In this document: positions 3,735-16,384 of the stretch, piece by piece
Numbering within the stretch: the first letter of the stretch is position 1
How the letters are laid out: every line of letters begins with the position of its first letter
Assembly: GCA_002256465.1 (NCBI GenBank)
Contig: NQJG01000002.1
Coordinates: forward strand, 1-16,605
Direction: 5' to 3'
Origin: Methylococcaceae bacterium NSP1-1
GTDB lineage: Bacteria; Pseudomonadota; Gammaproteobacteria; Methylococcales; Methylomonadaceae
DNA: 16,605 nucleotides
The notes under the pieces: generated by a model
Told to the model about the DNA's origin: nothing
Databases searched by the model: none
Seen by the model: only the letters and a program-made list of their open reading frames with translations
Translations under genes and position numbers: made by a program

Positions 3735-4271
3735 ATGAAATTCGGTTATGTGGTTTTGTTTGTTTTTCTGACCGGTTTAAGCGGTTGCGCTACAAATGGC
3801 AATAAGCCCCCTCAGGCGGTACAGCATACCGGTACAGGCACGTTGATCATTAAGCCCATAGCTTTCAAGAAAGATGCTTATATAAGAGATGCCGTCAAAC
3901 AGGAATGCAACCTGGATGGAAAACTGGTTCAGTTTATTGAGCAATATGCAGCCGGACAGTACGCGAATATAGTCACGGATTCTAATACGGCGCCCGCTGA
4001 TGCACAGGTTCTGACGATAGAATTTGAAGACGTGCAGGGTGCTGCCGGAGGAGCTTGGTCAGGCGCAAAATCAGTCGTGATAAAGGGTTCGTTAAGCCAA
4101 AAGGGTAAGATGTTGGGAGATTTTAAAGCCCGGCGTTATTCCGGCGGCGGTATGTTTGGAGGGTACAAAGGCACTTGCGCTATTTTGGGGCGCTGCGTAA
4201 AAACGTTGGGACGGGATGTGTCGGAATGGTTGGCTCACCCGACCCCTCAGGCTGTTTTAGGCGATCTGTAA
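3735..4271 (+). CDS. Small lipoprotein, DUF4410-like
   Basis: A 178-residue protein with a short signal and lipobox LSGC (15-18), so it should be lipidated at Cys18 and membrane-anchored facing the periplasm. The body contains a predicted alpha/beta section with a hydrophobic strand (LTIEFEDVQG), a Gly/Ala-rich turn region, and a Gly-rich segment RRYSGGGMFGGYKG before the C-terminal helix. This layout resembles the DUF4410 lipoproteins, whose function is unknown. The start is supported by AAGGTGA at 3724-3730. The stop is 8 bp before the ATG of the flavoprotein gene, so the two are probably one transcript. Whether they work together is not known. Confidence 0.7.
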   Translation: MKFGYVVLFVFLTGLSGCATNGNKPPQAVQHTGTGTLIIKPIAFKKDAYIRDAVKQECNLDGKLVQFIEQYAAGQYANIVTDSNTAPADAQVLTIEFEDVQGAAGGAWSGAKSVVIKGSLSQKGKMLGDFKARRYSGGGMFGGYKGTCAILGRCVKTLGRDVSEWLAHPTPQAVLGDL

Positions 4272-4279
4272 GATTATTT

Positions 4280-5602
4280 ATGAAGGCTGTTCCTAATTCA
4301 TGCGACGTGCTGGTAATCGGCGGTGGGCCTGCCGGCAGTAGCGCAGCCACGCACTTGGCGCAAGCCGGTTTCGATGTCGTGCTGCTTGAACGCGCCGTAT
4401 TTCCCAGAAATCAAGTGGGTGAAAGCCTGATTCCACATATCTGGAAATTCACCGATATGACCGGCGTGTCGGAAAAAATCGAGCAGGAATGTTTTTTGGC
4501 CAAGGCCGGCAGCATTACTGTCTGGAATGACAAAATCCACCAAATTCTGTTTTCTGATTTTGGCTATACCCGGCCTGGTTTGCATGTTGAGCGCGACATT
4601 TTCGATGATATTCTGCTGAAACATGCCGAAAGCTGCGGGGCTCAGGTGTTTAACGAGGTTACGGTCAAAAAATTCGATTTCAGTGACAGCCAGTGGCCGA
4701 AAATTTTTTACACTGACAAGCGTGGTCATAGCAATCATGAAAGCACTATCCGCTGCCAGTATGTCATTGATGCCAGCGGCCACAGTTCCTTTCTGGCAAA
4801 TCAGTTTAAAGTCCGCCAGACAATCAGCACGCAATTGAATTTTTTATCGCTGTGGGGCTATTTTGAAAACGCCCGTTTCGTCGGCGTCGACCGGAAGAGC
4901 TATTCCACGGAGGCGCTGACAACTGTAAAGCCGGTGACCTTTGTTATGTCGTTTGAAGACGGTTGGGTCTGGCATATCGTGTTACGGGGTAAGACCAGTG
5001 TCGGCCTGATTGTACCATCTGAAAGAACCAGAGGCATGGATCGGCAGCAGCGTGAAGTGTTCTTTAAACAAACCTGCGCAAGCCTGCCGCATTTGAACAA
5101 ACTGCTGGAACCGGCGCGTTTTATTGAAGGCTCGCTGCAATTCCGGCCGGATTACTCCTATTATTCTAATAAAATCTGCGGCGAAAACTATTACTGTATC
5201 GGCGACGCCGCAGCCTTTGTTGATCCCATCTTCTCTCACGGCGTCCAAAACGCATTTTATAACGCCGCCGCCGCAACGCTGGCGATCAAAGAATCTCTAA
5301 AAAACAAAAAACATCGATTGCGTTACAGCCAGCTTTGTGAAAGCCGTATGCAGCAGTTTTACGGCTTTTCAAGATCTTTGTCGTTGGGCGAATTCGGCAG
5401 TAACGGGATCAACCCTGGCCTGGTAAAAAACCTGATGAGGTTACTGCCGCAGTTGGAACTGGAACTTATTCTGGTCGCTTCGGAAACGACCAACCGCTCG
5501 GAAAACTTCCGCCGGTTAGCCAGAGAAGCGGGCGTGTTAGGACAGTTTGAGGAAAACTTTTCCGGCAGAAAAACCGAACGGATTGGGGCATTGGATTTTT
5601 GA
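4280..5602 (+). CDS. FAD-dependent oxidoreductase, halogenase/GGR-like
   Basis: A 440-residue flavoprotein. The N-terminal Rossmann motif GGGPAGS (14-20) binds FAD; next come the VGESLIP loop (46-52), a lysine at residue 75 near the position of the catalytic lysine of flavin halogenases, VIDASG (162-167), and the second FAD motif IGDAAAFVDPIFSHG. The halogenase motif WxWxIP is altered: WVWHIV at 229-234, with Val for Pro. This may therefore be a halogenase relative acting as an oxidoreductase or reductase, as in the geranylgeranyl-reductase-like group. I start it at the ATG at 4280, because the longer frame from 4175 lies inside the lipoprotein gene and would place about 35 unrelated residues before the FAD motif. 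It is probably co-transcribed with the lipoprotein. It resembles in kind, but not closely, the flavoprotein at 12271-13515. The substrate is unknown. Confidence 0.8.
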   Translation: MKAVPNSCDVLVIGGGPAGSSAATHLAQAGFDVVLLERAVFPRNQVGESLIPHIWKFTDMTGVSEKIEQECFLAKAGSITVWNDKIHQILFSDFGYTRPGLHVERDIFDDILLKHAESCGAQVFNEVTVKKFDFSDSQWPKIFYTDKRGHSNHESTIRCQYVIDASGHSSFLANQFKVRQTISTQLNFLSLWGYFENARFVGVDRKSYSTEALTTVKPVTFVMSFEDGWVWHIVLRGKTSVGLIVPSERTRGMDRQQREVFFKQTCASLPHLNKLLEPARFIEGSLQFRPDYSYYSNKICGENYYCIGDAAAFVDPIFSHGVQNAFYNAAAATLAIKESLKNKKHRLRYSQLCESRMQQFYGFSRSLSLGEFGSNGINPGLVKNLMRLLPQLELELILVASETTNRSENFRRLAREAGVLGQFEENFSGRKTERIGALDF

Positions 5603-5740: not shown

Positions 5741-5839
5741 ATGGCAAATAAAATAATCACACGATGAATTTATGAGGAATATACAGCAAACAAGGTTTTA
5801 CATAAGAAGTCTATTTTGTTTATCTACAGATCGGTCTTC

Positions 5840-6289
5840 ATGTTTGCTCAAGCGCTCATTGCTTTTGTAGCATTGCCGGGCGTTATAGCCATCGCCGTTC
5901 CGGTCACCTGGCTATGGGCAAGTTCCCACACAAAGCTCGTCCAACCTTTGGGGCTAGTGCCTTTGCTCGCCGGTTTCTTTGCGTTGCTCTGGTGTGTCCG
6001 TGACTTCTACATCTCAGGCAAGGGCACGCTTGCCCCGTGGGCTCCTCCAACCCGATTGGTCACCATCGGTCTCTACCGCTACACGCGGAATCCCATGTAT
6101 ATCGCAGTAACGCTTGTTCTTCTTGGTTGGGCACTGTGCTTCGGTGCGCCGGGCCAGTTCGTCTACGCAGTCGTAGTAGCTGTTGCCTTCCACGTGCGGG
6201 TCGTGCTGGGCGAGGAGCCCTGGTTGGCGCGAACGCATGGAACACAGTGGGAGCATTATTCAAGTCGCGTTCCTCGCTGGTTCTGGTGA
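5840..6289 (+). CDS. Isoprenylcysteine carboxyl methyltransferase-family membrane protein
   Basis: A 149-residue integral membrane protein with about four hydrophobic segments. The C-terminal half has the family signature seen in small bacterial ICMT/phospholipid methyltransferase-like proteins: GLYRYTRNPMYIA, then a hydrophobic segment, then a Glu-containing segment VLGEEPWLARTHGTQW and YSSRVPRWF. These enzymes use S-adenosylmethionine; the substrate of the bacterial members is usually unknown. An upstream TTG (5816) is in frame, but the ATG at 5840 gives the N-terminus typical of the family (MFAQALIAF). Neither has a clear ribosome site. The gene looks richer in G+C than its neighbours and uses C/G-ending codons (CTC, CGG, GTC) more freely. 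With the odd sequence after it, this suggests acquisition by transfer, possibly as an integron-type cassette. Confidence 0.8.
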   Translation: MFAQALIAFVALPGVIAIAVPVTWLWASSHTKLVQPLGLVPLLAGFFALLWCVRDFYISGKGTLAPWAPPTRLVTIGLYRYTRNPMYIAVTLVLLGWALCFGAPGQFVYAVVVAVAFHVRVVLGEEPWLARTHGTQWEHYSSRVPRWFW

Positions 6290-7946: not shown

Positions 7947-9023
7947 TTATTTATATCCATCGCCGGTTCCCAACAAGGCGGCGATGATGTTTTTCTGAAT
8001 TTCCGAAGAACCCGAAAACAGGCGGCTGGAAAGGGCATCGCTGACTAATCTAGCCATCGGGCTGTCTGTTATCAGAGCGCTGCTGCCGAGGATGTGTATT
8101 GCATCCAGACTGGATTGCAGAAATGCTTCTGCGGCGAATAATTTGGTCTGGGCGCTGGCTAGGGTAAGGCGCTTGTCATTGTCTTTCAGGCGCGCGCATT
8201 CATTGACCCAAAGTCTGGTGGTGTCCAGTCTTAATTTCATGTCAGCAATTTTATGACTAATAGCCTGATTTTTACCCAAGTGAGTTCCGTTGACTTTGCG
8301 TTCGCGGCTGAATCTGATCACGCTGTCCAGTTGCCATTCCATGACGCCACAAATTCCGGCAAAAATAAACGCTCGCTCCAGTTCCAGCGCCTGCTGAATC
8401 ATCATGTTGCCGGCGCCGGTTTTGCCCAGTTGTCTGGAATGTGGAATCAGAGCGTTTTGCAGTATGACATCCCCCATGGTCGCACTCTGACAGCCGGATA
8501 CTTGGGGTGAATCAAGAAAGTTGGCACCTTCATCGTCATTATGTACGATGAAAGCGGATAATTTATTGTCCAGACGGGCATAGACGACCAGCAAATCGGC
8601 AATGGGGGTGTTGGTAATAAAGCGCTTGCGGCCGTTCAGTAAAAACCCTTCTTCGGTGCATACAGCAGTCATTGCCAGAGCGTTAAGATCGGAGCCCGCC
8701 TGAATTTCGGTAATGGCATGGCCGCCGACCAGGAGCCCCGCCATTAATTTGTGGATATAGTTTTCCTGTTGCTGGGCATTGCCGTAATTCAGTAGCGGAA
8801 ACAAAGCGCCCCACAGATGGGCGTTGATGGAGAGCAGTAAGCCGCTATCCTTGCAGGCTTTGCCAAGTGCTTCGTGTGCATTCACCATGTCGGCAAAACG
8901 GTTGCCGTTGCCGCCGCGATTTGCCGGGATCGCATGCTTTAAAAGCCCCTGACTTGCGCAATAAAAAAAGCGTTGCCGCGAAGCTGTGGCGTCTCCGGCA
9001 CACGGCAGCTTGTCCATTTCCAT
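7947..9023 (-). CDS. Prolyl-S-PCP dehydrogenase-like acyl-CoA dehydrogenase
   Basis: A 358-residue flavoprotein of the acyl-CoA dehydrogenase family, likely oxidising PCP-bound proline to pyrrole-2-carboxyl-S-PCP (the PltE/RedW/PigA role). It contains AIPANRGGNG (31-40), the FAD/substrate motif ITEIQAGSD (104-112) and FSGSSEIQKNIIA (336-348). The catalytic Glu of medium-chain enzymes (the Glu of the YEGT motif) is replaced by Ser337, while LELER (213-217) supplies Glu216 where isovaleryl-CoA dehydrogenase and, as known for the family, prolyl-PCP dehydrogenases keep their base. The N-terminus is about 20 residues shorter than usual. Its ATG directly follows the TGA of the adenylation gene in the same frame, so both are in one operon and possibly derived from one fused gene. 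It is the last gene of the leftward operon. A true acyl-CoA substrate is the alternative. Confidence 0.85.
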   Translation of the reverse strand: MEMDKLPCAGDATASRQRFFYCASQGLLKHAIPANRGGNGNRFADMVNAHEALGKACKDSGLLLSINAHLWGALFPLLNYGNAQQQENYIHKLMAGLLVGGHAITEIQAGSDLNALAMTAVCTEEGFLLNGRKRFITNTPIADLLVVYARLDNKLSAFIVHNDDEGANFLDSPQVSGCQSATMGDVILQNALIPHSRQLGKTGAGNMMIQQALELERAFIFAGICGVMEWQLDSVIRFSRERKVNGTHLGKNQAISHKIADMKLRLDTTRLWVNECARLKDNDKRLTLASAQTKLFAAEAFLQSSLDAIHILGSSALITDSPMARLVSDALSSRLFSGSSEIQKNIIAALLGTGDGYK

Positions 9024-10469
9024 TCAGTTTTTCTCCAGTTGTTGGTGTAATGTTTGATAGTCGGTCTTGCCGTTCGATAAATATGGCAGCGAATCCAGTA
9101 CAATAAATTTACAAGGTTGCATGTAGGTCGGCAATTTTTGTTTGATTGGCCTGACAATCGCTTCCAGTTTGGCCCCCGGTTTCAGCACAACTGCAGCGGC
9201 GGGACGTTGACCGCTAGAACTGTCCGTGATGCCAATCACGGCGCAGCCAGTTACTTCAGGACATTGTAATAAAACCGCTTCGATTTCCGCTGGTTCAACT
9301 CTGTAGCCTGAGCATTTCAGCATCCGGTCAAGACGACCGTGATAGCAATATTCGCCCCGTTCGTTTAGCGATACTTTATCGCCGGTGTGATAATAGTTAT
9401 CGGTCGATAAAGCGGCTATCAGTTCACCTTGCTGCCAGTAGCCGGACAGATTGTTGGCGCTTTGTACCTGTAATTCACCCATTTCAGCATCGATTTTCAA
9501 GACAGCGCCGCAAGCCGGATAGCCGATCGGGATTGGCCGATCGGTCTGTAGGCGGTCGCGGTCTACCGGCCAATAGCAGCAGACATTGGTTTCGGTGGGG
9601 CCATAAAGGTTATAAAAGTCGACTGCCGGCAATAAAGCACACAGTTTTTTCAACTGAGGCGTCGGAAACACCTCGCCGGCAAACAGAACGGTCTTCAGAT
9701 CAGGCAATGGGGTGGTGGACAAAGAACCTTTCAGGGCGATAAAACTAAGTAAGGACGGCACTGTGTAAAAAACACTGATGCAATATTCGCTTAGCCAGGC
9801 TGTAAGACGACTGGGCGACATTGTCAGGCCTGACGGTACAAAATGAACGCTAGCACCGCAACTTAAGCTACTGAACAGATCGAAAATAGATAGATCGAAA
9901 TGAAAGGGGGCTAATGAAGCAATACGGTCGCAGGGACTGATTTTGAAATTGCAGGCTGCCCAGCCGGCGAAATTGCTTAGGGCTCTGTGACTTAAAGCAA
10001 CGCCTTTGGGTGCGCCGGTGGAGCCGGAAGTATAGAGTATTGCCGCCAGCGCTTCGGCATCGACTTCTGCCGGCCAGCTTGTGCTTGATTGCACAAAAGC
10101 TGTCTGATCAATATCCAGCCAGAGTGCGGATGTTTCCAGCCAGTCCGGGCGATGTCCTTTACCGATGATACATTGGGGAGCGGCATCGTTAATGATGTAA
10201 TTTAAGCGGTTGGCCGGATTTTTGATGTCAAGAGGAATGTAGCAAGCACCTGCACCCAACACGGCGAGTATGGCTATGGCGGCATCGATACCGCGATCCA
10301 GGGCAATGACGACGCGCCGGTAAGGATTTTTCGTATTAGTCAGACAGGCGCTTAACTGGCAGGCCTGTTGTATAAGTTGCTGATAGTTAAGCTGCCGGTC
10401 ACCTTCAACAAAGGCAATATTGTCCGGGGCGCCTTGGCATTGCCGGTTAAATGCGGACAGCAAAGACAT
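9024..10469 (-). CDS. Stand-alone L-prolyl adenylation enzyme
   Basis: A 481-residue AMP-forming enzyme of the NRPS A-domain type, which activates an amino acid and loads it on a carrier protein. Motifs include YTSGSTGAPKG (146-156), NLYGPTE (287-293), YHTGD, GRLDRMLKCSGYRVEP, and the catalytic lysine K468 in NGKTD. Aligning to GrsA by eye, the specificity residues are D192, L193, F196, Y235, L262, A264, L288, V296, C297 and K468, that is DLFYLALVCK. From memory this is the proline code of PltF/RedM-type enzymes. No condensation or carrier domain is fused; the PCP at 11872-12111 is the obvious partner. No clear ribosome site precedes the ATG. It follows the condensation-like gene after 74 bp and abuts the dehydrogenase gene with no spacer. 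Comparable proteins: PltF, PigI, RedM. Confidence 0.92.
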   Translation of the reverse strand: MSLLSAFNRQCQGAPDNIAFVEGDRQLNYQQLIQQACQLSACLTNTKNPYRRVVIALDRGIDAAIAILAVLGAGACYIPLDIKNPANRLNYIINDAAPQCIIGKGHRPDWLETSALWLDIDQTAFVQSSTSWPAEVDAEALAAILYTSGSTGAPKGVALSHRALSNFAGWAACNFKISPCDRIASLAPFHFDLSIFDLFSSLSCGASVHFVPSGLTMSPSRLTAWLSEYCISVFYTVPSLLSFIALKGSLSTTPLPDLKTVLFAGEVFPTPQLKKLCALLPAVDFYNLYGPTETNVCCYWPVDRDRLQTDRPIPIGYPACGAVLKIDAEMGELQVQSANNLSGYWQQGELIAALSTDNYYHTGDKVSLNERGEYCYHGRLDRMLKCSGYRVEPAEIEAVLLQCPEVTGCAVIGITDSSSGQRPAAAVVLKPGAKLEAIVRPIKQKLPTYMQPCKFIVLDSLPYLSNGKTDYQTLHQQLEKN

Positions 10470-10543
10470 GGTTATGAACGCTCATCAGCGGGAATTGCCC
10501 TGATTATGCGCAGCAGAGGTTATTATCATATCAGCCTGGGTGA

Positions 10544-11875
10544 TTATTCGGCTTCTCCCAGTAATTCCGCCAGCATTAACTGATGCAATTTGTCGATTTG
10601 TTCGGAATTGCCGACCGGTTCATTAAAGTTATAGCTCAGGGTTAACTGATTCCGGTAGATACAGCTCAGGAAAGCCAATGCCGGCGGTGTCGTGACCTGA
10701 CAGGCATAAAAAACGGCCTTTATTTCAGCACCGGGAAAGCTGTCTGCCGGAATATCCAGCCGACCGACATCGGAAAACCAGAAGGAACTGCGCTCTTTGC
10801 CCGAGCCGTGGGATTGGCGCAGGATCTTGCCGTATTCTGTCAGTGATAGCCAACTGCCTGCCCACATCAGAGGCAGAAAGGCATAATCCATTTGCTGACG
10901 AATGACCTGGGCATTTTGCTGCTTAAGGTGGGCAAATAATTTTTGCCGGTCTTGAACGGCGTCACGAGGCACTTGCGCAAACAGAGCACAAACATGATTG
11001 CCGGTCATTGGCGTCAATGCCCGTTGCTTGCGCAAATTGAAGGCGTAGGGTGCGCAATAGGCTTCGCCGGCATTGTCAGGATGCATTTTTTCCAGTGCCC
11101 GCATCAGGCAGCCTATGTAATAAAGGCTGGTACCGGTTAGGCCGACATGTTGTCTGGCCAGTTTGATGACCTGTTCGGTTTGTGCTTCGCTCAGCCTTTT
11201 AATGGTGTAGTTCATGCGTTGCGGTGGCAGATCACTGTTGAAAGGCTGAATACTTTCCAGACGGTCCAACTGGTCGATATAGCGTTTGCCTTTCAATAGC
11301 AGGCCGATCTTTTGCCACCAGCGATATTTACCCAGTTGCACATTCACTAATGAGCCTGTTTCAGGCAGGCCGAATTGTTGGCGTTGCACATCATCGGCAG
11401 TGCAGAGATATTTCAGGATTAAATCCGCGCCCCGGGCATCGCCGAACGGATGCATCCAGCGGATAAAAAAAGTATGTTGTTTCGGACCGGTCAACAGATG
11501 AAATTCGATGGGAGCGGAGATTTCCCTTGTCTGTTTATGATTTATAATGCGGTCAAGGGTTTGTTGCTGGAAATCTGCTTCATTTTGGTTATCCGGGCAA
11601 TGATGCTGGAAAAACAGCGTGGGGGGATCGTTGCGTTTACACCAGTAGAAACGTCGTCCGATCTGTCTCAGAGAGGCCTGAGACACGGGAAAGCGCTGGC
11701 TGAATTCGGTAATCCGCTGTTGCAGCGCCTCTATATCCGGGATATTGCTGAGCACCAGAGCAAAACAGCCGTAATTGCCGGCCAGGCCGTCCTTGCGGAT
11801 TTCCTCATCCATGGCGAGGGTGAAGCTATCGGCCGGATTGAGTTTTTCCAGAATATCTTCTTTTTTGATACTCAT
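10544..11875 (-). CDS. Condensation-like acyltransferase
   Basis: A 443-residue protein resembling the condensation-domain/WES acyltransferase superfamily of CoA- and carrier-dependent acyltransferases. The active-site motif HHxxxDG appears as MHPFGDA (141-147): the catalytic second His (H142) and the structural Asp (D146) are kept, the first His and the Gly are not. A later SFWFSDVGRLD is where the DFGWG-like latch region is expected. An upstream in-frame ATG (11899) exists, but I start at 11875 because this ATG overlaps the PCP stop (ATGA), the classic sign of translational coupling. Tight coupling to the PCP suggests that it takes its acyl group from that PCP, for example moving pyrrolyl from PCP to an ACP or an acceptor alcohol or amine. 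The precise reaction is inferred. Confidence 0.75.
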   Translation of the reverse strand: MSIKKEDILEKLNPADSFTLAMDEEIRKDGLAGNYGCFALVLSNIPDIEALQQRITEFSQRFPVSQASLRQIGRRFYWCKRNDPPTLFFQHHCPDNQNEADFQQQTLDRIINHKQTREISAPIEFHLLTGPKQHTFFIRWMHPFGDARGADLILKYLCTADDVQRQQFGLPETGSLVNVQLGKYRWWQKIGLLLKGKRYIDQLDRLESIQPFNSDLPPQRMNYTIKRLSEAQTEQVIKLARQHVGLTGTSLYYIGCLMRALEKMHPDNAGEAYCAPYAFNLRKQRALTPMTGNHVCALFAQVPRDAVQDRQKLFAHLKQQNAQVIRQQMDYAFLPLMWAGSWLSLTEYGKILRQSHGSGKERSSFWFSDVGRLDIPADSFPGAEIKAVFYACQVTTPPALAFLSCIYRNQLTLSYNFNEPVGNSEQIDKLHQLMLAELLGEAE

Positions 11876-12111
11876 CCGTTTTGATGCCGTAAAATCCATT
11901 GTTCCAGTGCATTAAAGGATTGCACATTGTCCGGTTCAATTTCAGTATCGGGCAGGGTAACGCCGTATTCATTCTCGATAAACATAATGAGCCGCATAAT
12001 ACCCATGCTGTCCAGACCGGCCTCCAGAAGATCGTCATCATCGCTGAATTGCGCCGGATCGGCGATAAAAACGAGCTCCTGAAAGATAAAATCGCGTAGT
12101 TTCTTTTTCAT
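11872..12111 (-). CDS. Stand-alone peptidyl/acyl carrier protein
   Basis: A 79-residue carrier protein with the phosphopantetheine site GLDSMGI; Ser35 should carry the 4'-phosphopantetheine arm. It is acidic in the centre (SDDDDLLEAG) and predicted to be all-helical, with the size of PltL, RedO and PigG, the dedicated proline carriers. It is the first gene of the leftward operon, and its TGA overlaps the ATG of the condensation-like gene by ATGA. The adenylation enzyme downstream would load it with proline. It could alternatively serve as ACP for the ketosynthases, but its neighbours favour the proline role. Confidence 0.88.
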   Translation of the reverse strand: MKKKLRDFIFQELVFIADPAQFSDDDDLLEAGLDSMGIMRLIMFIENEYGVTLPDTEIEPDNVQSFNALEQWILRHQNG

Positions 12112-12149
12112 GGCTTTTGTAAGGTATACTAAACGGTTAATGATAGCTG

Positions 12150-12180
12150 ATTAGGGCTACAATAGTCATTAGTAATTAGG
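12150..12180. promoter_or_regulatory. Repeated ATTAGG motif in the divergent cluster promoter
   Basis: The 159-bp gap between the two operons carries TGATTAGGGCTA (12148-12159) and TAATTAGGATAG (12173-12184), similar sequences 25 bp apart on the same strand. The spacing, close to 2.4 turns, could suit a dimeric regulator. This is weak evidence on sequence alone. Confidence 0.25.
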
Positions 12181-12211
12181 ATAGCCGAATATTTTTCAGG
12201 CATAGTTTGCG

Positions 12212-12239
12212 TTGAAATAACTTGAGAGACATTTACAGA
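12212..12239 (+). promoter_or_regulatory. Candidate promoter of the rightward operon
   Basis: TTGAAA (12212-12217), 16 bp, TACAGA (12234-12239), about 30 bp before the ATG at 12271. The -10 is a moderate match (four of six). Confidence 0.3.
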
Positions 12240-12270
12240 ATGAAAATAGAAATGCGGACAGGTTGGAATT

Positions 12271-13515
12271 ATGGCTGATAGAGGAAGCGTCATTATTATT
12301 GGCGCAGGACCGGCAGGCAGTATTGCCGGGGCTTTGCTAAGCAATAAAGGTTATCGGGCCACCATTGTAGAACGGGATGCTTTTCCTCGCTTTAGTATAG
12401 GCGAGAGCTTATTGCCCCAGTGCATGGAATTTATTGAGCAGGCCGGGATGCTCGATGCAGTGCAGGCGGCAGGTTTTCAATTAAAAACCGGAGCGGCATT
12501 TTTGCATAAAGACAAACATTCCGAATTTTGTTTTGCCGATAAATTTACCGACGGCTTCGATTCCACCTATCAGGTGCAGCGCGACCGTTTTGATGCCCTG
12601 CTGGCCGATGAAGCACAGCGCATGGGGGTTGAAATTCGCTGGCAGCAGGAAGTGATTGCGGCTGATTTTAGCGGCACCAAGCCGACCCTGACGATCAAAG
12701 ACACAAGTGGACGTCATGATCAGCTGACCGCCGATTTTGTACTGGATGCCAGTGGCTTTGGCCGGGTATTACCGCGCCTGCTGGATCTGGAAAAACCTTC
12801 CGGTTTTCCGGTGAGACAGGCATTGTTTACTCATCTGGAAGACCGGATTGATGACGCAGGCTATGATCGCAATAAAATCCGCATTATCGTTCACCCCGAA
12901 CTGAATGATGTCTGGTATTGGTTGATTCCGTTCAGTAACGGGCGCTGCAGTATCGGTGTAGTAGGCGAAGCGGAGGTGTTTAATATTCACGGAGCAGATC
13001 GGCAATCCGTGTTGAAACAATTCATTACCGAGGAGCCGGGCTTGTTCGCCCTTTTGCATAATGCGGTATTTGATACGCCGGTCAACAGTATTAGCGGTTA
13101 CAGCGCCAACGTCAAGAGCTTGTATGGCAAGGGTTATGCCTTGCTGGGCAATGCGGGCGAATTTCTCGATCCGGTATTTTCCTCCGGCGTCACTATCGCC
13201 ATGAAATCAGCCAGTTTGGCGTTTGATGTGCTGGATCGGCAATTTAACGGATTGCCGGCCGACTGGCAAAGCGATTTTGCAGAGCCCTTGCAGAAAGGTG
13301 TGGAAACTTTTCGCACCTTCGTTACCTCATGGTATGAGGGCGGTTTACAGGATGTGGTGTTCTACCCGCACATGAAGAAAGTCGAACAAATGAATGACAT
13401 TAAACAGATGATCTGTTCGATTCTGGCCGGTTATGTCTGGGACGAGAATAATCCTTATGTCAAAAATCATAGTCTTCGCCTGAAAACGTTGGTGGAGTTG
13501 TGTCGCGAGCCCTGA
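12271..13515 (+). CDS. Flavin-dependent halogenase-like protein
   Basis: A 414-residue FAD enzyme. GAGPAGS (11-17) is the nucleotide-binding motif; IGESLLP (43-49) follows; Lys72 in FQLKTGA lies where halogenases keep their catalytic lysine; WYWLIP (215-220) is an intact WxWxIP halogenase signature; GNAGEFLDPVFSSGV is the second FAD motif. Known enzymes use FADH2 from a partner flavin reductase, oxygen and chloride or bromide, and the pyrrole group acts on PCP-bound pyrrole. The neighbouring pyrrole-forming genes fit that well. It is shorter than most pyrrole halogenases, and similar proteins without proven halogenation exist in polyene clusters, so a hydroxylase or dehydrogenase role is not excluded. 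It is the first gene of the rightward operon, 6 bp before the ketosynthase ATG. No flavin reductase is seen in the window. Confidence 0.8.
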   Translation: MADRGSVIIIGAGPAGSIAGALLSNKGYRATIVERDAFPRFSIGESLLPQCMEFIEQAGMLDAVQAAGFQLKTGAAFLHKDKHSEFCFADKFTDGFDSTYQVQRDRFDALLADEAQRMGVEIRWQQEVIAADFSGTKPTLTIKDTSGRHDQLTADFVLDASGFGRVLPRLLDLEKPSGFPVRQALFTHLEDRIDDAGYDRNKIRIIVHPELNDVWYWLIPFSNGRCSIGVVGEAEVFNIHGADRQSVLKQFITEEPGLFALLHNAVFDTPVNSISGYSANVKSLYGKGYALLGNAGEFLDPVFSSGVTIAMKSASLAFDVLDRQFNGLPADWQSDFAEPLQKGVETFRTFVTSWYEGGLQDVVFYPHMKKVEQMNDIKQMICSILAGYVWDENNPYVKNHSLRLKTLVELCREP

Positions 13516-13521
13516 TTGTTT

Positions 13522-14703
13522 ATGAGGCTGTATATTAATGACCTCGGCATCCTGTCCGCTGCCGGTAATAATGGTGGTGAGATGTTGCACCATTTGCAGG
13601 CAGGAGACCGGTCAGGTTTGGTTAGGACCGATGAGTATTCGCCCCATCAGGCGGTTTATTTAGGTGCTGTCCAGGCCGAATTGCCCGAAATCGGGGAAAA
13701 ATATAGCATTTATGATTGCAGAAACAATCAATTGTTGTTAGCTGCGTCGTGTCAGATTAAGGCGACAGTCAACCGCATGATTAAAAACTATGGTGTTGAC
13801 AGAATCGGCGTGGTAATCGGAACCAGCACATCCGGCGTTAGAAATACGGAACTGGCGCTGGCAGAAGTCGCCAGAGGCAGGCCTAAACCGCAAAAGTTTC
13901 ATTATAAACAGCAGCAGTTTGCTGGTGGGGCCGATTTTCTTGCATCTGTTCTGGGTCTGAAAGGCCCTGCCTATGCTATATCAACAGCCTGCTCATCCAG
14001 CGGCAGGGCGTTCGCCTCGGCGCGCAGGTTGATTGCTTTGGGCCTCTGCGATGCCGTTATTGTCGGCGGTGCCGATAGCTTATGCCGTTTTACGGTGTGT
14101 GGGTTTGAAGCCCTGGAGTCCTTATCGGCCGGATTGTGCAAACCTTTTGGTCCGCACCGGGACGGTATCAATTTATCCGAGGCGGTGAGCCTTTTTGTAT
14201 TAAGCAAGGATGAGGGGCCTGTATTGCTACAAGGTATTGGCGCCAGTAGTGATGCCTATCATTTCTCCGCACCCGACCCTACCGGCAGCGCCGTGATTGC
14301 TGCCATGGAAATGGCATTGGCGGATGCACAGATGCGGCCGGAACAAATTGACTATATTAATATGCATGGTACCGCGACACCCTTGAATGATGCGATGGAA
14401 AGCAAAGCGATAATGCAGGTATTTGGCGATACGGTTGCCGTCAGTTCGACCAAGGGCATGACCGGCCATGCTTTAGGGGCTGCTGCTGCTCTGGAGTTGG
14501 GCATTTGTTGGTTGTTATTGACACAGCGCGATGAACAGGGATTATTAATACCGAATATTAATGGTGATGGACTGGACCGCACTTTGCCGGCTTTGAATTT
14601 TGTAAAACCGGGTCAGACATTGGGAAGACGCATTAAACAGTGTCAAAGCAATTCATTTGCCTTTGGTGGTAACAATATTTCGATCATCATCTCGCATGTA
14701 TGA
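13522..14703 (+). CDS. Beta-ketoacyl-ACP synthase, ApeO-like
   Basis: A 393-residue thiolase-fold condensing enzyme that would extend an acyl chain by decarboxylative condensation with malonyl-ACP. The Cys-His-His triad is complete: Cys157 in STACSSSG, His282 in NMHGTATP and His316 in GMTGHALGA, with Lys311 before it. It is therefore an active ketosynthase and not a chain-length factor. The start at ATG 13522 is 6 bp past the halogenase stop; a TTG at 13516 is also possible but less likely, and the ribosome site is weak. Its TGA overlaps the ATG of the dehydratase (ATGA). The N-terminal region is divergent from FabF and resembles the KS of aryl-polyene clusters; that assignment rests mainly on order (KS, dehydratase, KS). 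Confidence 0.88.
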   Translation: MRLYINDLGILSAAGNNGGEMLHHLQAGDRSGLVRTDEYSPHQAVYLGAVQAELPEIGEKYSIYDCRNNQLLLAASCQIKATVNRMIKNYGVDRIGVVIGTSTSGVRNTELALAEVARGRPKPQKFHYKQQQFAGGADFLASVLGLKGPAYAISTACSSSGRAFASARRLIALGLCDAVIVGGADSLCRFTVCGFEALESLSAGLCKPFGPHRDGINLSEAVSLFVLSKDEGPVLLQGIGASSDAYHFSAPDPTGSAVIAAMEMALADAQMRPEQIDYINMHGTATPLNDAMESKAIMQVFGDTVAVSSTKGMTGHALGAAAALELGICWLLLTQRDEQGLLIPNINGDGLDRTLPALNFVKPGQTLGRRIKQCQSNSFAFGGNNISIIISHV

Positions 14704-15140
14704 AAAAGTTTGCTGTCGAAGAATTGCTGCCACATAGCGGCCGAATGGTGTTGCTGAACCGGGTCATTGAATTTGATGAAGAAAATATGGTTGCAGAAGT
14801 GATTGTGCGTGATGATGGATTATTTGGTCACGATAACACGGTACCCGCTTGGCTTGGGATAGAATACATGGCCCAAACCATCGCAGCGCTCGGAGGTATG
14901 AAGCGCAGACTGGCAGGAAAAAACCTCAATCCGGGTTTTTTACTGGGAACCAGACGGTATGATTGTAATGTTGGCCTATTTGCTGCGGGTTCGGTTTTAA
15001 CCGTTAGCGTCAAGCGATTGGTAGAGGATCAGGGACTGGGAGTGTTTGATTGCCGTATTACAGCTGAAGGTATATTGGCTTCGGCAAAACTGAATGTTTA
15101 TCAGCCTGATACAGCCATAAATCGGGTGATAACCAACTAA
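14700..15140 (+). CDS. 3-Hydroxyacyl-ACP dehydratase, ApeP-type hotdog protein
   Basis: A 146-residue hotdog-fold dehydratase that removes water from 3-hydroxyacyl-ACP to give the trans-double bond of a polyene. LLPHSGRMVLL (9-19) is typical of the APE-associated group. In the central segment GHDNTVPAWLGIEYMAQ, His44 and Glu55 correspond to the catalytic pair of FabZ. It is translationally coupled to the upstream ketosynthase (ATGA) and followed by 23 bp before the next start. In E. coli-type APE clusters a ketoreductase (ApeQ) normally sits between ApeP and the next ketosynthase; it is missing here. Confidence 0.88.
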   Translation: MKKFAVEELLPHSGRMVLLNRVIEFDEENMVAEVIVRDDGLFGHDNTVPAWLGIEYMAQTIAALGGMKRRLAGKNLNPGFLLGTRRYDCNVGLFAAGSVLTVSVKRLVEDQGLGVFDCRITAEGILASAKLNVYQPDTAINRVITN

Positions 15141-15163
15141 AGAAAACGATAAATGGAGTATTG

Positions 15164-16384
15164 ATGAAACGAGTTGTGGTAACCGGCATGGCAGCTATTA
15201 CGCCGCTGGGAAATGACTGGGAAACGGTTGCTCAAAAGCTTAAATCGCAAACAACCGGCATTCAAAGTATGGATGACTGGGGTAAATATAAAGGACTGAA
15301 TACCCGCTTGGGCGCGCCGGTGAATTTTTCCAGACCAGAGCATTATTCACGCAAACAAGTCCGTGGCATGGGACGGGTGGCGATGCTGGGTACTTATGCT
15401 TCGGAACTGGCTTTAATTGATGCCGGTTTGTTAAGCGATCCCTGTTTAGTAAGCGGTCAGGTGGGGATCGCCTACGGCAGTTCCTCCGGCAGTTTTGATG
15501 GTCTGATCGATTTTACCAAAATGCTGCTTAACTATGACAAAGGCGGAATGAATGCGACTTCGTATATACGCATGATGGGCCATACCTGTCCGGTCAATAT
15601 CAGTTTACATTTTGGAATTAATGGCCGCATTATTCCAACTTCAAGCGCCTGTACCTCCAGTAGTCAAGGTATTGGTTACGCCTATGAAACGATTAAACAT
15701 GGGCTTCAGGTAGCCATGGTGGCTGGCGGCAGTGATGAGTTGTCAGCCGCTCAGGCGGCAGTATTCGATACCTTATTTGCGACCAGTATCCGTAATGATG
15801 AACCGGACAAAACACCGCGTCCGTTTGACAAAGAACGTGACGGACTGGTGATCGGTGAAGGAGGCGGGACTTTAATACTGGAAGAGAGAGAGCATGCGTT
15901 AAGCCGAGGTGCGCATATTTATGCCGAGATTATCGGATTTGGCACCAATTGCGACGGTCAGCATGTTACACAGCCGGATTGTGACAGTATGCAGGTGGCG
16001 ATGAGGCTAGCGTTGCAGGATGCAGGCCTGAATGCAGCGGTGATCGATTATGTCAGCGCGCATGGCACCGCGACAGAGCTTGGCGATATTGCCGAAAGTC
16101 ATGCTACGGCTGCTGTATTCGGTAACCGGATTCCTATCAGTTCGATGAAAAGCTATACCGGTCATACGCTGGGAGCCTGCGGTGCGATTGAAGCTTGGGC
16201 AGCGGTGCATATGATGAATGAAGGCTGGTTTCATCCGACAGCAAATCTGGAAAACATAGACCCCGCCTGTGCGGAACTGGATTACATCAAAGGCGATATT
16301 CGCAAAATGGATTGCGAGTATTTGATGAGCAATAATTTCGCCTTCGGCGGCATTAATACCTCATTAATTTTCAAGCGGGTTTAA
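15164..16384 (+). CDS. Beta-ketoacyl-ACP synthase, FabF/ApeR-like
   Basis: A 406-residue ketosynthase close to FabF: VVVTGMAAITPLG at the N-terminus, Cys163 in SACTSSSQG, His300 in SAHGTATELGD, Lys329 and His334 in KSYTGHTLGA, and the C-terminal NNFAFGGINTS. The triad is complete. The TTG at 15161 is in frame, but ATG 15164 has TGGAG (15154-15158) at better spacing. Its position in the KS-dehydratase-KS series matches ApeR. In aryl-polyene systems one KS starts the chain from the aryl acyl group and the other elongates, and which does which here cannot be read from the sequence. The stop overlaps the next ATG (TAATG). Confidence 0.9.
   Translation: MKRVVVTGMAAITPLGNDWETVAQKLKSQTTGIQSMDDWGKYKGLNTRLGAPVNFSRPEHYSRKQVRGMGRVAMLGTYASELALIDAGLLSDPCLVSGQVGIAYGSSSGSFDGLIDFTKMLLNYDKGGMNATSYIRMMGHTCPVNISLHFGINGRIIPTSSACTSSSQGIGYAYETIKHGLQVAMVAGGSDELSAAQAAVFDTLFATSIRNDEPDKTPRPFDKERDGLVIGEGGGTLILEEREHALSRGAHIYAEIIGFGTNCDGQHVTQPDCDSMQVAMRLALQDAGLNAAVIDYVSAHGTATELGDIAESHATAAVFGNRIPISSMKSYTGHTLGACGAIEAWAAVHMMNEGWFHPTANLENIDPACAELDYIKGDIRKMDCEYLMSNNFAFGGINTSLIFKRV

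Follow-up and report, generated by a model that had tools for sequence, protein, structure and literature searches.

A pyrrolyl-carrier cassette beside aryl-polyene genes in Methylococcales: a possible source of a second acyl group

Flexirubin and xanthomonadin are aryl polyenes (APEs); the flexirubin system has an ammonia-lyase, and xanthomonadin carries a halogenated head. In pyoluteorin and prodigiosin synthesis, a trio of proline ligase, dehydrogenase and peptidyl carrier protein (PCP) feeds a ketosynthase (KS). In E. coli, ApeH was predicted to activate 4-hydroxybenzoate, which UbiC of ubiquinone synthesis supplies, and UbiC is absent from the published gene table of the E. coli APE cluster (PMC8253772). 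In A. baumannii, ApeO–ApeC alone was described as giving the fully elongated polyene, with ApeR raising the throughput (PMC8358021). Here we describe two divergent operons in a stretch of 16,605 nucleotides (the window; contig NQJG01000002.1), one of them a pyrrole cassette and the other of APE type. The window is the entire contig C248 of a metagenome-assembled genome (MAG; G000), which has 1.67 Mb, is 77% complete and is placed in the order Methylococcales by its named relatives. The best explanation of the window is that it represents one half of a split Methylococcales APE pathway, with a pyrrole cassette alongside. Open reading frames (ORFs) were called with a custom script and named by BLAST against the proteins of the window and its relatives. 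All eight genes that a first-pass annotation of this DNA had placed in the two operons were found at their coordinates in this ORF check.

The leftward operon (minus strand) holds a PCP, a condensation-like protein of 451 residues (C451), a proline ligase and a prolyl-PCP dehydrogenase, and is, as judged from its sequence matches, a pyrrolyl-PCP cassette. The dedicated PCP (11872..12111) matched PF00550 and has the DSM site. The stand-alone L-proline adenylation enzyme (A enzyme; 9024..10469) is of the PltF/PigI type. Among PDB chains with a single matched A domain its best matches were 7thn and 6o6e, both named L-proline--[L-prolyl-carrier protein] ligases, which we take to be PigI and PltF; the chains that outranked them each showed two matched stretches. 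Its likely pocket residues are D192, L193, F196, Y235/T236, L262, A264, L288, V296, C297 and K468, presumably corresponding to the ten-residue code. The dehydrogenase (7947..9023) is of the PigA/RedW/AnaB type and would be expected to convert prolyl-S-PCP to pyrrolyl-S-PCP. Its top NCBIfam models were PigA (287 bits) and RedW prolyl-PCP dehydrogenase (256 bits), both under the equivalog cut-offs (500 and 650), and the third model scored 169. The top three PDB sequences (4irn, 5zw0, 6af6) are all named prolyl-ACP or L-prolyl-PCP dehydrogenase, and LELER of the window protein aligned with MEWER of 4irn. A proline-type free A enzyme, a prolyl-PCP dehydrogenase and a free PCP, by which pyrrolyl-PCP biosynthesis is recognised, were thus all present by sequence. 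The pyrrolyl-PCP route of the first-pass annotation is supported by the Pfam, NCBIfam and PDB matches of the three proteins.

The rightward operon (plus strand) is, by the same kind of comparison, APE machinery. It starts with a flavin-dependent halogenase-like protein (Fhal; 12271..13515; PF04820), followed by the ApeO-type ketosynthase KS1 (13516..14703), an ApeP-type dehydratase (14700..15140; PF22817, 9.5e-23) and the ApeR-type ketosynthase KS2 (15161..16384). Both ketosynthases were typed by NCBIfam and PDB matches, and KS1 has the equivalents of ApeO H138, A166, C167 and F205, and KS2 those of ApeR F118, Y135, C164 and F202. The best PDB match of KS1 was 6qsp_A (340 bits), presumably ApeO of X. 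doucetiae. KS2 matched 4ewg (521 bits) and 7f27 (517 bits) best; 4EWG is described as an ApeR homologue (PMC8358021), and from the residue numbering 7f27 would be ApeR of A. baumannii. The APE-type operon that had been proposed before, with ApeO-type KS, ApeP-type dehydratase and ApeR-type KS, therefore stands on sequence grounds. The two operons are separated by a divergent gap of 159 bases (12112..12270), in which a promoter scan gave 2 promoter-like matches against 1.6 expected in shuffles, not above expectation.

Gene content and linkage were read directly from related loci. A scan of GTDB contigs for C451 gave nine loci, the window's relatives. All eight genes were present in the same divergent order in seven of the nine (L005, L007, L008, L009, L010, L011 and L013), so the layout is not due to chance. 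L006 kept six genes in place, with KS1 and Fhal on another contig, and L012 is a 5.2 kb fragment. Eight loci are named as Methylococcales or its genera or families, including Methylotuvimicrobium buryatense 5G (L013) and Methylomicrobium sp. wino1, and L011 is named merely as gammaproteobacterium. A ketoreductase (KR) lies between the dehydratase and KS2 in L008, L009, L010, L011 and L013 (5/7 loci). It was not found there in the window, L005, L006 or L007, and G000 was not searched for KR; the genomes of L006, L007 and L005 have KR at a second locus (L067, L068, L070). In G002 (L006/L073, L067), the contig that bears KS1, Fhal and KR also has glutamine synthetase and porin genes, which resemble those near the left end of the window. 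The dehydratase and KS2 stay beside the PCP in G002; provided that the MAG is sound, this cluster has been rearranged.

Linkage was also read in a sample of 201 Methylococcales genomes, which includes G000 and several of the eight relatives, so the two sets overlap; counts in it use an E-value limit fixed separately for each search. In all 12 genomes with a KS1 at least 73% identical (window included), C451 was 2.7–3.7 kb away. KS1 of at least 57% identity was found in 51 genomes, counted per gene, the operon itself being read in only some; C451 was absent from 37 and distant in 2, namely 777 kb from KS1 in G151 and on another contig in G187. The first-pass annotation had joined the two operons into one pathway and had proposed co-conservation of the eight genes as a check. 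The linkage is supported by the seven loci and by the 12 window-type genomes. The annotation had also stated that operons occurring apart in most relatives would refute its reading. This was the case for the wider KS1 set and not for KS1 of at least 73% identity.

The other half of the pathway was found in the relatives. An aromatic ammonia-lyase (HAL) and an ApeH/ApeI-type ligase were present in 8/8 relatives. On a single contig of G005 (L117, L071, L009), a stretch of about 33 kb combines APE genes with the pyrrole operon and a KS operon that includes KR. The set comprises an ApeC-like protein, an acyltransferase, an acyl carrier protein (ACP), an ApeH/ApeI-type frame, a glycosyltransferase, a second acyltransferase, HAL, a thioesterase, a carotenoid-isomerase/CrtI-like oxidase (AmOx), a LolA-like protein, an MMPL exporter, a lipoprotein-like protein, a second flavoprotein (Flp_up) and a few other genes. 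The domains of the ApeH frame, AMP-binding and PF22818, were scanned in the L068 homologue. In M. buryatense, a PF13723 (ApeC-type) protein, two ACPs, ApeH/I, a glycosyltransferase, an acyltransferase, HAL and a thioesterase lie some 53 kb away from the pyrrole locus; the distance to the exporter genes and Flp_up is about 0.8 Mb. The first-pass annotation had suggested a look for KR, ACP and exporter genes further to the right. KR, ACPs, glycosyltransferase, thioesterase, LolA-like and MMPL/RND proteins were present in the relatives' loci that were read, and an exporter at the right end of the window was not supported.

The lack of an aryl-starter gene had been taken as informative in the first-pass annotation. 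This is not supported: UbiC of E. coli is outside the cluster, and ApeH and HAL are in 8/8 relatives. HAL scored 347 bits against the FlxA TAL model and 430 against HutH, both under cut-off. Its loop YTFHGCGLG (L068 13162–14691 and homologues) fits none of the HutH, TAL and PAL motifs known to us.

A second APE-type KS set in the relatives was considered and rejected. The stand-alone PF00109 frames of the eight genomes were two fatty acid synthase (FAS)-type KSs (FabF and FabB in our own reading), KS1 and KS2; one or two large polyketide synthase (PKS)-like frames were present in G002, G004, G005 and G008. The complete genome of wino1 has by PF00109 the two FAS-type KSs, KS1 and KS2, and M. 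buryatense 5G has one large PKS-like frame besides. By this inventory, the stand-alone KSs on which the ApeH locus can draw are KS1 and KS2, and it should be served by the KS operon that adjoins the pyrrole cassette. In some distant APE clusters a further KS (KSb) adjoins an ApeC-like protein near exporter genes (L094 17842–19778, PF13723; L104, L123, L133). The labels COG4648, DUF3261, NnrU, FabF and FabB are presumed names of our own.

Across the 201 genomes, C451 was found in 61, KS1-like in 123, ApeH-like in 123, AmOx in 66, Flp_up in 47 and HAL in 53 (50 at ≥70% identity; three rows at 34–36% identity in G009, G012 and G203 were dropped from the HAL counts, and the G134 row is a piece of 119 residues). 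C451 and AmOx were together in 59 genomes (C451 only in 2, G000 and G143; AmOx only in 7; neither in 133), and C451 and Flp_up in 46 (C451 only 15, Flp_up only 1, neither 139). C451 occurred with ApeH in 59 (C451 only 2, ApeH only 64, neither 76) and with KS1-like in 59 (C451 only 2, KS1-like only 64, neither 76). C451 and HAL (≥70%) showed no association (both 13, C451 only 48, HAL only 37, neither 103). Fisher values for these co-occurrences ignore kinship and, the genomes being related, are not true probabilities. Among the 26 genomes of genus g5 in the matches listed, C451 and AmOx coincided exactly (16 both, 10 neither). KS1-like and ApeH were both present in 118 genomes, and C451 was in 57 of them: 13 had C451 and HAL, 44 C451 only, 36 HAL only and 25 neither. 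C451 thus varies independently of this core. The cassette is an accessory of the APE core; it goes closely with AmOx and more loosely with Flp_up. AmOx (L068 1120–2676, L070 7605–9134, L071 6043–7599, and relatives) was found in 7/140 genomes without C451, four of these with the alternative cassette described below. Our guess is that AmOx isomerises the polyene.

Several of these data might suit two separate products, with a distinct pyrrole metabolite made by the cassette together with Flp_up and the isomerase-like gene, and an ordinary APE operon that just happens to adjoin them. The distant C451 genes of G151 and G187 and the 37/51 genomes with KS1 and without C451 fit this, as does the G012 cassette (L105), which by eye stands among housekeeping-looking genes. 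KS1-like and ApeH-like genes were each present in 59/61 genomes with C451, against 64/140 without, and the linkage in 12/12 window-type genomes also speaks for a common product. In distant relatives (L094, L104, L133), the cassette, an ApeC-type protein and an exporter share one cluster. We consider two separate products improbable.

A different cassette was found beside the same operon in four genomes. G040, G116, G127 and G172 have HAL and AmOx, lack C451, and carry directly upstream of Fhal–KS1 a PCP, a C-like protein, an FAD oxidoreductase (PF12831) and an acyl-ligase. All four genes were read in L135, L138 and L139, and the L140 stretch ends inside the ligase. G122 has both the pyrrole cassette and the alternative cassette, the latter in an exporter block (L100, L123). 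A further halogenase-like flavoprotein accompanies the alternative cassette in L135, L138 and L123. In a tree of KS1, KS2 and Fhal from 20 loci, the loci with the alternative cassette formed one clade (support 97). The linked pyrrole loci and that of G151 (L120) formed another (92; the ten linked loci alone 48), and two cassette-free loci fell outside both. L120 was labelled "none" as it has no cassette beside the operon; its genome has the C451 777 kb off. The type-B outgroup also bears the pyrrole cassette, so the tree does not give the direction of gain or loss. Two unlike acyl-making cassettes, each with a C-like enzyme, beside the same operon are most easily read as supplying an extra acyl group.

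C451 (10544..11899) is proposed to be a condensation-superfamily-like acyltransferase that takes the pyrrolyl unit off the PCP and passes it to an acceptor, on the basis of an HxxxDA motif and an indirect profile link. The motif (H150xxxD154) was invariant in 17/17 C451 sequences. Compared with HHxxxDG, the first His is not retained and Ala replaces Gly. None of the 17 sequences matched PF00668 at E up to 10, in searches whose filters drop most matches above about 0.1. The link was given by hhalign, in which C451 and the C protein of the alternative cassette matched over nearly their full length (99.7%) at about 23% identity. The latter keeps HHxxxDA and has a weak PF00668 match (best 4.2e-5, under cut-off). 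Searched in a class sample of 369 genomes, the C451 profile gave four matches (G000, G016, G236, G267). G236 and G267 are outside the order; the match of G267 was strong and that of G236 weak (54 bits, part of the profile). L133 (G267) is an APE-type cluster with a pyrrole cassette in a 1.4 Mb, 82%-complete genome, for which transfer and contamination are both possible.

We infer every catalytic step and the site of attachment. The A enzyme would load L-proline onto the PCP, and the dehydrogenase would oxidise prolyl-S-PCP to pyrrole-2-carboxyl-S-PCP. C451 would then transfer the pyrrole-2-carboxyl group to a nucleophile within the APE pathway; the likeliest recipient is the pigment once it is finished or membrane-bound. 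Synthesis of the polyene itself would be conventional, with ApeH loading an aryl acid on an ACP and KS2 and KS1, with a chain-length factor, KR and dehydratase, extending this starter. Fhal probably halogenates the aryl head. With ApeH and HAL in 8/8 relatives and KS1 without C451 in 37/51 genomes, the cassette appears to be an addition to a conventional APE pathway more than a substitute for its starter. We tentatively propose, at a little less than an even chance, that C451 transfers pyrrole-2-carboxyl onto the APE as a cap.

The chief alternative is pyrrole priming, in which pyrrolyl-S-PCP serves as starter, either by itself or as a second option besides the aryl acid. An APE ACP would receive the pyrrolyl unit, perhaps through C451, and KS2 and KS1 would extend it. 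The cassette lies directly beside the KS operon, and in pyoluteorin and prodigiosin synthesis such a trio supplies a KS. KS1 fits the PigJ model with 91 bits, FabF-type models scoring higher. To our knowledge, known pyrrole-starter systems need no condensation protein. The aryl route is kept beside the cassette: ApeH is in 59/61 C451 genomes, and HAL in 13/14 genomes having C451 of at least 60% identity. Missing HAL was considered as evidence for priming and rejected, as the 25/118 APE-capable genomes with neither HAL nor C451 show that a genome without HAL need not use a pyrrole starter.

The ketosynthases were compared at ApeR F118, Y135, C164 and F202 and at ApeO H138, A166, C167 and F205, residues that are discussed for the 4-hydroxybenzoyl enzymes ApeR and ApeO of A. 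baumannii (PMC8358021). The comparison covered 28 hand-chosen loci, with 26 KS2 rows including one duplicate (L006 = L073), and kept 23 KS1 and 22 Fhal rows after filters; the first rows of L140 are among the partial clusters. In the window's group the tested positions were identical in pyrrole-bearing, cassette-free and alternative-cassette loci, so that these sequences give no sign of a changed starter.

Some results weigh against the cap. The same constancy allows that pyrrole might fit the same pocket. In the cassette-bearing type-B loci, the only changes were A166 to S or T in 3/3 KS1 and F118 to Y in 1/5 KS2 (L136), which in these loci speaks mildly for priming. Fhal and the alternative cassette share a strand; the pyrrole cassette runs divergently from Fhal. 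The changed KS positions of type B and this orientation slightly weaken the cap and slightly strengthen priming. The strongest point for priming is that HAL and C451 exclude each other in genus g5: among the 26 genomes listed HAL was in 9, C451 in 16 and both in none, as a starter swap would predict. C451 had no meaningful Pfam, NCBIfam or PDB match in direct searches, and could equally pass the pyrrolyl group to an ACP thiol, making it a starter. The pyrrolyl acceptor in the APE pathway is putative, and ApeH, HAL and AmOx were not found in G000, a MAG of 77% completeness. On balance we favour the cap over priming, which we judge unlikely while taking it seriously.

Fhal bears on both the cap and priming. 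The motifs FxxKxG and WxWxIP of flavin-dependent halogenases were present in 22/22 Fhal sequences, those of the window and of C451-free loci included. Its best PDB match was 3nix (387 bits), named merely flavoprotein/dehydrogenase, followed by ChlB4 (142), CmlS (130) and PltA (122). The first-pass annotation had suggested a halogenase for the pyrrole in particular. Fhal would in that case chlorinate pyrrolyl-S-PCP to a halopyrrolyl unit, as PltA does in pyoluteorin synthesis, which is compatible with a cap or a starter. Its intact motifs, the PltA match and its place as divergent neighbour of the PCP agree with this. The suggestion is not supported, since Fhal is likewise the first gene of the KS operon where C451 is missing (L115, L147, L148), and 3nix is far closer than any chain named halogenase. 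We regard pyrrole chlorination as very improbable. Because the motifs are kept in C451-free loci and 3nix is nearest, a role in APE synthesis is more probable for Fhal than halogenation of a pyrrole.

Three other proteins are encoded to the left of the cassette on the plus strand. Flp_up (4283..5602) is CmlS/QhpG/LodB-like, with WVWHIV in place of WxWxIP, and co-occurs with C451 as described above. A lipoprotein-like protein (3735..4271), recognised by eye and without a Pfam match, has homologues adjoining Flp_up in L066, L069, L071 and L106. A PEMT/ICMT-like methyltransferase (5816..6289; PF04191) may act on the pigment, and its homologues adjoin the cassette in distant relatives (L094, L096, L100, L104, L133, L137). 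An exporter as in L005 was considered at the window's right end and rejected, the last 221 bases giving no convincing reference match (tblastn, best E 0.01, 14 residues). Inspected by eye, these bases look like the beginning of a membrane protein (L007 4218–5165), with a single stop codon in them.

We speculate that methanotrophs have a modular APE family, in which exchangeable cassettes of PCP, condensation-like protein and ligase directly upstream of the operon provide the membrane pigment with a second acyl head. The pyrrole cassette would then lead to doubly headed or pyrrole-primed polyene lipids, an undescribed class; we put this forward with more doubt than confidence. Titles and abstract openings of the open-licence literature gave no pyrrole-bearing APE or bacterial pyrrolyl polyene. 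APE clusters have been reported in methanotrophs, in papers whose main text nowhere has 'pyrrol' (PMC11964084, PMC12810054), and aryl polyene and nonribosomal peptide synthetase (NRPS)-like fragments are listed for a pink Methylobacter, likewise without 'pyrrol' (PMC12662621). The parts are of known kinds, and their combination and spread over the order appear undescribed. If the proposal is true, a proline-derived pyrrole on the pigment would change its chemistry, and perhaps its protective role, in methane consumers. M. buryatense 5G, for which genetic tools exist, has the cluster, so that starter and cap can be directly distinguished.

Compared with known systems, the cassette resembles by sequence the pyrrolyl-PCP assembly of pyoluteorin, prodigiosin and AnaB in its stand-alone proline ligase, prolyl-PCP dehydrogenase and free carrier; we take the corresponding names to be PltF/E/L (pyoluteorin), PigI/A/G (prodigiosin) and AnaB (prolyl-ACP oxidation). 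Unlike in pyoluteorin and prodigiosin assembly, a condensation-like protein comes after the PCP gene in the window, and the KSs beside the cassette are APE-type rather than a PltB- or PigJ-like synthase. If priming is right, the nearest products are the fungal (halo)pyrrolyl polyenes rumbrin and auxarconjugatin, which are made by fungal synthases of another kind. The methanotroph loci share an ammonia-lyase with flexirubin and, with xanthomonadin, a probable halogenation of the head; we know of no pyrrole cassette in either system. COG4648-like and DUF3261-like proteins, presumably so named and without a Pfam match, are present in the relatives as in known APE clusters. Unlike the E. coli APE pathway, that of methanotrophs is split over at least two loci in several genomes, and in the window's group ApeH and ApeI form a single frame. 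Absent from the E. coli gene table are an aromatic ammonia-lyase, a halogenase-like flavoprotein and the PCP–C451–A enzyme–dehydrogenase cassette (PMC8253772). Like the APE clusters described for E. coli CFT073 and X. doucetiae, the window encodes ApeO-, ApeP- and ApeR-type enzymes, and the relatives have ACPs, a PF13723 protein, ApeH/I, glycosyltransferase, acyltransferase, thioesterase, LolA-like and MMPL/RND proteins and KR (PMC8253772, PMC8358021).

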